From positions 1 through 38,954 of the forward strand of contig JAGHAM010000026.1 of the NCBI GenBank assembly GCA_021161465.1: 38,954 nt of DNA. Direction: 5' to 3'. Made by a program: the position numbers and the translations under genes. Below the pieces are notes generated by a model. The model saw only the letters and a program-made list of their open reading frames with translations, was not told the origin of the DNA and made no database searches. The stretch comes from Candidatus Iainarchaeum sp. GTDB taxonomy: Archaea > B1Sed10-29 > WALL01 > JAGHAM01. Positions 14,050 through 29,664 of the stretch are shown here, in pieces (the stretch's first letter is position 1; each line of letters starts with the position of its first letter).

Positions 14050-15138
14050 ATGAGATGGGTTATTGCAATATCATTGGCAATAGTAGCTATTGCATCTATG
14101 GCGGCTGGCTCATGCCTGAACTTTTTCGTTCAGTCCGGTGAGCCTGTTGTGGTTAGCCAGAATTCTGTTGCCGGTGTCAGGGTCGGTGTGACAAATATCT
14201 GCGATTCAGCAGACTTTAATATATCTGTTAATTCTGATTTTCCTGCTTCGATAGAACCAAACCACTTTCGGCTGAGGGAGAGGGGGACACAGGAGTTGAT
14301 TTTAAGTTTATCACCTGGTGGGACCAGTCCAGGGATTCACGAGGTTAAGATACTATCATCAAACGGCGAGGAAAAGAGCATATTCGTGAAAGTACTGAAA
14401 GGAGGAAATCCACTTGTTTTACACGCGCCAACTAGCATATCTTTTAGGGAAGGGGAGAAAGTCTCATTTTGGGTTGTCGTCGAAAACAAGGGCAACACTA
14501 CCTTAAGCAACGTGGTTGTGATGTTCGAGAGGGATGGACGGAAGGGCTTTTACGATACCCCACTCAGCCTGCAACCAGGGGAGAGGAAAGCTGTCAAGCT
14601 TAACCTTGGAGATTTGAAGCTTGGGGTGTATGACTTCACTGTGAAGGCATTCACAGGTGACATATCAACCACAAGGGTAGTTACTGTTAAGGAAGAGCCG
14701 ACTTATGTTCCTGTTTCAACTATCATAAATCTAAGGGAAACCAGCGATGGGTATGTTGTTGAGTATACCATAACAAACAATGCGGATAAGGAGCTTAAGG
14801 ATGTGTTTGTAACCATTGAGGATGCCCCATCAGATTGGGAAGTCATATCACCACCCCCATTTGACCTTAAGCCCAATGAGTCCACATCAGTTGAGCTGGT
14901 TTTAAAGCACGGTGACCAGCCAAACGCCAATGTGACCATTTCTGTGTACTCTGGCCTTTCTCTGGTTTATGAGGAAGGGCTTGAGATAAACCAGGCAAGG
15001 CTCCATGGGATTACAGGATTGTTCTTAAAGGGAACTGCATTAAGCTGGGGTTTGTTCTTCCTGCTTCTGGCTGGAGTGGCCTACCTAATCTACCTGCATA
15101 GGGAAAAGCTGATGAGACGTTTATCCTCTAAGGCCTGA
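14050..15138 (+). CDS. Secreted NEW3/CARDB-like domain protein with C-terminal TM
   Basis: Signal peptide MRWVIAISLAIVAIASMAAG; GISLFLKG..WGLFFLLLAGVAYLIYL-type TM at the C-terminus; TATA tttataaa at 14019 makes ATG 14050 a better start than the listed GTG 14032. Confidence 0.75.
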   Translation: MRWVIAISLAIVAIASMAAGSCLNFFVQSGEPVVVSQNSVAGVRVGVTNICDSADFNISVNSDFPASIEPNHFRLRERGTQELILSLSPGGTSPGIHEVKILSSNGEEKSIFVKVLKGGNPLVLHAPTSISFREGEKVSFWVVVENKGNTTLSNVVVMFERDGRKGFYDTPLSLQPGERKAVKLNLGDLKLGVYDFTVKAFTGDISTTRVVTVKEEPTYVPVSTIINLRETSDGYVVEYTITNNADKELKDVFVTIEDAPSDWEVISPPPFDLKPNESTSVELVLKHGDQPNANVTISVYSGLSLVYEEGLEINQARLHGITGLFLKGTALSWGLFFLLLAGVAYLIYLHREKLMRRLSSKA

Positions 15139-15640
15139 ATCGCTCTATCTTGTAGTAAGTTATGTCCCCCTCTTTGTCCACCAGTGCATAAATCATCTTT
15201 TTTCTCACATTTTGTGCCAGCCTGACAGACCTTGAAAAGTCCTGGAAGTCACATTTGTATTCTTCGGGGACGGCATGAACTAGCCATATGGCGTGCCCTT
15301 CCCCCGGCCTGACACCCCTACCATAAATCCTGTAGTGTGTCCCGAATTTGAAGCCGGTTTTGACTATGAACCCTCTGGCCCTTATGTCCCTGTATACAAT
15401 ATACTTCAGCGGGAATACCTTGTCTTTTTTGGTAAAGAGCTTCATAAGGTCCTTAAATTCCAGCTTCTTCCCCTTTGGGTCTTCAATCACGAAATTCTTT
15501 CGTTTTTCCTTGAGGAACAGGGTTTCTTCAGGCGACAGCAAGACCTTTCCACCATGGTCCTCACCGAAGCCCCGCTCCAAAAGTTCTTGGATAACTTTCT
15601 CATCTGTTACCCATATCCTTCCTTCAGTAAGCAAAGCCAT
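15128..15640 (-). CDS. endA: tRNA-intron (splicing) endonuclease EndA
   Basis: YIVYRDIRARGFIVKTGFKFGTHYRIYGRG, GHAIWLVHAVPE, RLAQNVRKKMIYALVD; Tyr/His/Lys catalytic residues present; 170 aa, single-unit architecture. Confidence 0.93.
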   Translation of the reverse strand: MALLTEGRIWVTDEKVIQELLERGFGEDHGGKVLLSPEETLFLKEKRKNFVIEDPKGKKLEFKDLMKLFTKKDKVFPLKYIVYRDIRARGFIVKTGFKFGTHYRIYGRGVRPGEGHAIWLVHAVPEEYKCDFQDFSRSVRLAQNVRKKMIYALVDKEGDITYYKIERFRP

Positions 15641-28115: not shown

Positions 28116-28254
28116 GGGCCTGTGGCTCAGCTTGGTTAGAGCGTTCGACTGATAATCGAAAGGTCCCCGGTTCAAAAAGAAGGGTTGCACCCTTTCTAAA
28201 CCTGCAGGGATTGCTTCGCAATCCACTTTGGGGTGGAGAATCCGGGCAGGCCCA
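28116..28254 (+). tRNA. tRNA-Ile(GAT) interrupted by a 64-nt insertion in the T-loop (putative noncanonical intron)
   Basis: Acceptor GGGCCTG/CAGGCCC, D-stem GCTC/GAGC, anticodon arm TTCGA-CTGATAA-TCGAA, variable AGGTC, T-stem CCCGG/CCGGG, discriminator A, CCA not encoded; T-loop TTCAA...AT is split by 64 nt; the spliced product would be 75 nt. Confidence 0.88.
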
Positions 28255-28271
28255 TCATAGGGTTGCACCCT
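28181..28271 (+). repeat. 13-nt exact repeat AGGGTTGCACCCT, inside the tRNA insertion (28181-28193) and just after the tRNA (28259-28271)
   Basis: Read directly; each copy is itself an inverted repeat AGGGT-TGC-ACCCT. Confidence 0.9.
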
Positions 28272-28452: not shown

Positions 28453-29664
28453 ATGAGGAACATAACAATAGAGCATTACCAAAGGCCGGTAACCGACCAA
28501 AAAATCGAAATCGTCGAGAGAAAAGGAACTGGTCATCCTGACCAGATTTGTGACAGTATTATGGATAAAGTCAGTGTAGCGCTTTGCAAAGAATATTTGA
28601 AGAAATGTGGGAGGATAATGCACCATAATGTTGACAAGGGTTTGCTCTCCTCTGGTTCAGTTAAAGTCCAGTTTGGGGGTGGCAAGGTAGAGGAACCAAT
28701 GCTTTTCATCTTTGGTGACAGGGCTACCTACGAGTGTGATGGGGAAACCATACCTGTAGATGAGATAGCGATAAATACAGCTAAAGAGTGGCTCCATGAG
28801 AACATAAGGTTCCTTGACCCAGAGCACGTAAGATACCAGGTTGAGCTCAAACCAGGCTCGGCTGAGTTAACGGATATCTTTAACAGGCAGGATAATGGGG
28901 TGCTTGGAGCTAATGATACCTCAGCAGGAGTGGGGTATGCACCATTGACTCCAACAGAGCGCGTTGCATTGGAGACCGAGAAGTTCATCAACTCAAAAAA
29001 ATTCAAGGAGGAGTTCCCTGAGGCGGGTGAGGACGTGAAAGTCATGGCCATGAGGCAAAACAATGATTTGCTTGTGACCATAGCGCTTGCTTTCGTTGAC
29101 AGGTTCGTAAAGGACGAGGCTGACTATTTTAGGAAGAAGAGCGAGATAACTGAGCGTGTTATGGAATTCGTTAAAGAGAACCACGGGAACGACTTCTCAA
29201 GTGCGGATGTGAACATAAACACCCTTGATGTTAAGGGTAGGGGAATCCATGGGGTTTACCTGACTGTTACTGGCACTTCGCTGGAGGATGCTGACTCTGG
29301 ACAGGTAGGAAGAGGCAATAGGACCAATGGTATAATAGCTTTCAACAGGCCGTCGACGATGGAGGCAGCTGCTGGCAAGAATCCAGTCTCTCACGTGGGA
29401 AAGATATACAATGTCCTCGCGCATAAGATTGCCAACAAGGTGGTTGAGAACGTTGACGATGTTGGGGAGGTTTACATCTGGCTTTTAAGCCAGATTGGCA
29501 ATCCAATCGACCAGCCAGCGATAGCAGCTGCGCAGGTTGCACTGAAGGATGGGGTATCTCTGAGCTCTGTTGAGAAGGATGTTTTCCATGAGGTTGATGA
29601 TGAACTTGCAAACATAGACAAGTTCACCATGAAGCTTGCCCGTGGGGAAATCCCAATATCCTAG
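28453..29664 (+). CDS. metK: Archaeal-type S-adenosylmethionine synthetase
   Basis: KIEIVERKGTGHPDQICDSIMDKVSVALCKEYL, MHHNVDKGLLSSG, GRGNRTNGIIAFNRPSTMEAAAGKNPVSHVGKIYN. Confidence 0.95.
   Translation: MRNITIEHYQRPVTDQKIEIVERKGTGHPDQICDSIMDKVSVALCKEYLKKCGRIMHHNVDKGLLSSGSVKVQFGGGKVEEPMLFIFGDRATYECDGETIPVDEIAINTAKEWLHENIRFLDPEHVRYQVELKPGSAELTDIFNRQDNGVLGANDTSAGVGYAPLTPTERVALETEKFINSKKFKEEFPEAGEDVKVMAMRQNNDLLVTIALAFVDRFVKDEADYFRKKSEITERVMEFVKENHGNDFSSADVNINTLDVKGRGIHGVYLTVTGTSLEDADSGQVGRGNRTNGIIAFNRPSTMEAAAGKNPVSHVGKIYNVLAHKIANKVVENVDDVGEVYIWLLSQIGNPIDQPAIAAAQVALKDGVSLSSVEKDVFHEVDDELANIDKFTMKLARGEIPIS

Follow-up and report, generated by a model that had tools for sequence, protein, structure and literature searches.

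The 64-nt T-loop insert of tRNA-Ile(GAT) in Candidatus Iainarchaeum sp., a probable protein-spliced intron and one copy of a genome-wide family

T-loop introns and the transposition of tRNA introns are already known from the Thermoproteales. In this order, T-arm introns lie at positions 53/54, 56/57, and 59/60 (PMC4090602), intron transposition has occurred on a large scale (PMC4033280, PMC4090602), and P. calidifontis carries 71 introns across 46 tRNA genes (PMC8450103). A high density of noncanonical tRNA introns has been associated with broad-specificity splicing endonucleases that carry additional subunits or loops. According to reviews, the alpha4 EndA is narrow, and efficient removal of relaxed introns is confined to the (alphabeta)2 and epsilon2 enzymes (PMC6379350; PMC4090602). 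Here, we describe an interrupted tRNA-Ile(GAT) gene in a window of 38,954 nt, the whole stretch analysed, from a genome of Candidatus Iainarchaeum sp. A lone alpha4 enzyme accompanies tRNA genes that are mostly interrupted in the T-loop, which makes the co-evolution rule directly testable.

The interrupted tRNA-Ile(GAT) gene

The acceptor stem (GGGCCTG/CAGGCCC), D arm, anticodon arm (TTCGA-CTGATAA-TCGAA), and T-stem (CCCGG/CCGGG) of the gene are fully paired, and its T-loop is opened by exactly 64 nt (Table 1). Removal of 64 nt results in a 7-nt T-loop and a 75-nt tRNA with a complete cloverleaf. ARAGORN did not call the interrupted gene in the raw window and called tRNA-Ile(gat) in the insert-free sequence. 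The Rfam tRNA model (RF00005) matched 28116-28174 with 33.5 bits, above its cut-off, only with the T-arm skipped. As the insert has A-rich flanks, the same 7-nt loop and 75-nt length result from four junctions (56/57 to 59/60), of which three (57/58 to 59/60) also yield an identical spliced sequence. An earlier note on this DNA had described intact arms around a 64-nt opening, a 75-nt tRNA with a 7-nt T-loop after removal, and a junction ambiguous by a few nucleotides, and all three descriptions hold.

Table 1. Coordinates of the tRNA-Ile(GAT) gene, its insert, and other features of the window.
Feature	Position	Strand	Remark
tRNA-Ile(GAT) gene, interrupted	28116..28254	+	mature 75 nt; discriminator A at 28254
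Anticodon GAT	28151..28153	+	
T-stem 5' strand CCCGG	28166..28170	+	partner CCGGG 28242-28246
T54-A57 (UUCA), 5' strand of BHB-like central helix	28171..28174	+	
64-nt intron (putative)	28177..28240 if cut at 59/60 (BHB rule); 28174-28237 if 56/57	+	register inferred from the BHB rule; sequence alone cannot fix the junction
Conserved hairpin H1 (AGAAGGGU-UGC-ACCCUU[U]CU)	28178..28197	+	bulged U 28195; core common to the intron family
Conserved linker AAACCTGCA	28198..28206	+	
Second hairpin H2 (GGATTGC-TTC-GCAATCC)	28208..28224	+	
UGGA, 3' strand of central helix	28234..28237	+	then 4-nt bulge GAAT (3 nt in most other copies)
3' exon: T-stem 3' strand, acceptor 3' strand, discriminator base	28242..28254	+	
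Hairpin AGGGTTGCACCCT directly 3' of the tRNA gene	28259..28271	+	sequence equals the H1 core
Archaeal-type AdoMet synthetase	28453..29664	+	shows synteny of the tRNA-Ile orthologue in the same-family relative
EndA tRNA-splicing endonuclease, alpha4-type	15128..15640	-	170 aa; full-length match to M. jannaschii 1A79

The UUCA/UGGA pairing and the strong H2 hairpin, both of which had been noticed earlier by eye, are present in the insert. At the 3' site, all 4 pairs of the central helix form, but the bulge has 4 nt rather than 3 nt. At the 5' site, AAA is followed by H1 and AA before the inner helix, unlike the strict form, in which a 3-nt bulge leads directly into the inner helix. The motif is therefore at best a relaxed or BHL-like form; the earlier note had likewise stated that it is not a textbook hBHBh'. 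We tentatively note that the CC(T) of the linker could pair with a GGG upstream of the 3' site and stack on the central helix. The MFE fold of the insert does not show the full BHB-like motif. Of 38 T-loop inserts, 14 show the central helix in single-sequence MFE folds, and the structural reading therefore rests on comparison, not on folding.

No second GAT tRNA was found among the RF00005 matches in the assembly (976 kb, 40 contigs, 93% complete), which is a MAG with contig breaks inside repeated introns. Of 51 CTGATAAT sites checked in the assembly, a full anticodon stem was found at one, that of the gene described here. The search for an intact tRNA-Ile(GAT) elsewhere, proposed by the earlier note, thus found none in the assembly by either approach.

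In G001, the one same-family relative compared, the orthologous tRNA-Ile also lies directly upstream of the AdoMet synthetase gene (78% protein identity over the available stretch). It carries a 45-nt T-loop insert at the same position, with a diverged sequence that retains the pairing as a perfect UUCA/UGGA helix with a 3-nt bulge. The same tRNA is uninterrupted in the same-order and same-class relatives G002, G005, G010, and G014. An uninterrupted tRNA in these relatives, together with a position that is kept in G001 while the sequence has changed, suggests that the insert was, most simply, gained and has since been maintained. The gene is very unlikely to be a decayed copy. The G001 orthologue (G001:C38, L195) carries an extra D-loop insert, which is absent from the window gene. 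The closest listed relatives of the AdoMet synthetase are scattered over Bathyarchaeota, Hadesarchaea, Jordarchaea, and several bacterial phyla, a spread that suggests horizontal transfer; we rejected this protein as a taxonomic marker for being too horizontally mixed.

A family of inserts with a common core

A DNA search with the T-arm revealed many homologous inserts in the genome, nearly all of which are located within tRNA T-loops. The tRNA-Ile(GAT) insert belongs to a T-loop intron family that extends across the genome and has a common structured core, and it is far beyond chance because it is homologous to inserts in many tRNA genes of this genome and of its relatives. Structural parsing identified T-loop inserts of 12-321 nt in 21 of 25 tRNA genes, a fraction that is biased upward, since some of these genes were found through their introns, and that includes isotypes assigned by eye. 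Anticodon or D-loop inserts often accompany the T-loop inserts, and a hand count gives about 45 introns in the 25 genes, or about 1.8 per gene. In a control free of the intron-based bias, RF00005 found 8 tRNAs in this genome, all of them interrupted, with a best score of 55 bits. The same search in 18 relatives found 13-53 tRNA matches each and, where listed, the best scores are about 69-76 bits; the comparison set for the phylum comprises 19 genomes, all of one class. One of these relatives, G012 (15 matches), is another heavily interrupted genome. Annotation can thus miss most tRNAs in such organisms.

Simple copies have 45-67 nt, the inserts of the Cys and Val genes have 12-13 nt, and compound arrays reach 321 nt. 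Inserts identical over 59-77 nt are found in tRNA genes of different identity, and excision results in standard tRNAs for Ile, Gly, Phe, and Val (ARAGORN). A 31-position covariance model of the core (R1) matched 25 places in the genome; 22 of these are within tRNA introns, and the other 3 immediately follow tRNA genes. Because some of the sequences used to build R1 come from this genome, its scores here are partly by construction. The E-values of R1 are rough. H1-like hairpins stand directly behind the 3' ends of Ile, Ala, and Glu genes (window 28259-28271, L001, L190, L192); these may represent inserted units, processing signals, or terminators. The assembly breaks at the repeats of a tRNA-Ser gene (L307 C20:1-600, L309 C25, L310 C34) that bears large inserts in both the anticodon loop and the T-loop and seems to be longer than 500 nt.

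All parsed core-bearing T-loop inserts start with UUCR after the T-stem, in most cases with an A-run behind it; nearly all finish with YGRA or UGGA, then three bases (usually ANU), and the T-stem. When UUCR was compared with the four bases before the 3' site in 38 inserts, all 4 pairs formed in 33, with a 3-nt bulge in 23 and a 4-nt bulge in 10; neither register fits the other 5, and bulge registers of 0-2 and 5-7 nt gave the complete helix in none of the 38. In the 3-nt register, base 57 and its partner are A:U in 16 inserts, G:C in 8, A:C in 1, and G:U in 0 (Fisher p about 8e-6; because the copies are related, the covariation counts overstate the number of independent events). The same pattern is seen separately within G001 and within G012. 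By the BHB rule, pairing in the 3-nt register would place the cuts at 59/60 and leave a UUCRAAU loop.

The H1 hairpin shows 25 double-change cells across 18 sequences, and 95.8% of cells are paired. None of 500 shuffles reached the observed covariation score or percentage paired, and H1 clearly exceeds slid registers. A bulged pyrimidine is conserved in H1, beside the 5' site. In G012 (L046, L049, L052, L180, L184, L187, L196), the H1 5' strand GGGGYUGC can pair either locally or with a distal GCARCUCC, and the partners change together (U/A to C/G). The distal alternative would form a long-range inner helix that gives a near-canonical BHB; a conformational switch or copying between two source types is possible.

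H1 is also found at the 5' site of anticodon introns, in tRNA-His of this genome, G001, and G002, in tRNA-Asp of G001, and in tRNA-Gly of G011, as well as in tRNA introns of Ca. Burarchaeum (a named Micrarchaeota genome) and LFW-281_7. In other archaeal families, the hairpin is mostly an intergenic repeat, in some cases near tRNA 3' ends. In G056 and G036 of another archaeal family (L212, L213), it is flanked by a tRNA 3' end and a second copy of this end, on the opposite strand, which resembles an integration footprint. The exact DNA pattern of the core had no match in the named GTDB genomes, a set that may exclude the window's own genome. A search of plasmids found no match. Given that H1 is present in both T-loop and anticodon introns, here and in relatives, and also in Ca. 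Burarchaeum, we considered whether its core, the hairpin with the bulged pyrimidine together with AAACC next to the 5' site, is an undescribed RNA module that moved between archaeal phyla and either enables a narrow alpha4 EndA to act on introns of different tRNA loops or drives intron spread. We regard this proposal as possible, though on balance doubtful.

Splicing machinery and competing explanations

The genome contains a single PF01974 gene, the EndA gene of the window, with no second subunit type. The protein is colinear with the homotetrameric EndA of M. jannaschii (1A79), relative to which no insertion the size of a crenarchaeal or ARMAN-type specificity loop is visible. The earlier expectation of a broad-specificity endonuclease is contradicted by this lone alpha4-type enzyme. 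One gene in the genome encodes RtcB. The T-loop junctions may be near enough to the strict BHB for an alpha4 EndA, or H1 may help.

The reading of the insert as a noncanonical intron, one of two offered by the earlier note, has the best support, and no second GAT tRNA was found in the assembly. We are confident that the insert represents an archaeal tRNA intron removed by proteins from a noncanonical position in the T-loop, most likely 59/60 by the BHB rule, and that it is one copy of a family that has probably dispersed among the tRNA genes of the lineage. In the unspliced transcript, the outer helix would be formed by the T-stem. T54-R57 (UUCR) would pair with four bases of the intron just upstream of the 3' site, so that a bulge of 3 nt (4 nt in this copy) separates this helix from the T-stem. 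The 5' side would have an AAA bulge, then H1, and then the intron-internal helix. The single alpha4-type EndA would cut in both bulges, and RtcB would join the exons into a normal 7-nt T-loop (UUCRAAU).

A decayed copy, broken by a small palindromic repeat while the true GAT tRNA lies in the unassembled part of a 93% complete genome, would accord with the resemblance of H1 to a dispersed repeat, which is found behind several tRNA genes here and between genes in a few other archaea. This explanation is very unlikely: every stem is perfect, as is the restored T-loop; an insert has been kept at the same site in the orthologue; and about 20 other tRNA genes carry such inserts with no uninterrupted RF00005 match, so that the cell would be almost without tRNAs. 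Retention of the insert in the mature tRNA as an expanded T-loop is similarly improbable. The small inserts of 12-13 nt (Cys and Val) might be tolerated in this way, but inserts of 64-321 nt would be expected to block processing or to disturb the T54-A58, Psi55-G18, and C56-G19 contacts that T-loop bases make in tRNA, and the conserved, covarying pairing ties up U54-R57, the very loop bases that a mature tRNA needs.

The conserved structured core, with the bulged pyrimidine of H1, the AAACC linker, and copies in other phyla, could also point to a self-splicing group I or group II intron or to a new small ribozyme. Rfam families, however, revealed no known ribozyme or other element in the insert and no group I or group II match at E<=1, simple copies have only 45-67 nt, the splice sites are BHB-like, and EndA and RtcB are present; self-splicing is thus highly improbable. 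Protein splicing, the preferred reading, is compatible with an origin of the insert as a mobile element (a MITE-like palindrome or an RNA-level transposon) that targets T-loops and is tolerated through splicing. The long identities across tRNA identities, the compound arrays, and the related units at tRNA 3' ends favour such an origin, whereas neither a coding partner nor a target-site duplication is seen here, and all 25 core matches in the genome lie in or directly behind tRNA genes. We consider a mobile-element origin a reasonable candidate, though we lean somewhat against it.

Comparison with known intron systems

In the open literature, we found neither T-loop introns described for this lineage nor any account of the H1 core. 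The new elements are the lineage, the saturation of its tRNA genes, the common structured core, and the "narrow" enzyme type. The near-identical introns provide a second system, outside the Thermoproteales, for the study of tRNA intron spread. Comparison with the Thermoproteales revealed that both systems have removable T-arm inserts, BHB or relaxed BHB junctions, several introns per gene, and near-identical introns across different tRNAs, with a density of about 1.8 per parsed gene here (hand count) versus 71 in 46 genes in P. calidifontis. The present system differs in that (i) it belongs to another archaeal phylum; (ii) the T-loop is the dominant site (21/25 parsed genes); (iii) a conserved hairpin lies beside the 5' site; and (iv) the endonuclease is alpha4 rather than (alphabeta)2. 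ARMAN-2 (Micrarchaeota; PMC6379350, PMC12397907) is likewise a small-genome archaeon with unusual tRNA introns, but its EndA is an epsilon2 enzyme with a specificity loop, whereas the sole EndA here is a 170-aa alpha type colinear with that of M. jannaschii. As in BHL and relaxed BHB motifs, the 3'-site bulge lies beside a 4-bp helix and the 5'-side bulge is enlarged; unlike in those motifs, the enlarged part here consists of a conserved hairpin of 20 nt, after which come AA and the inner helix.
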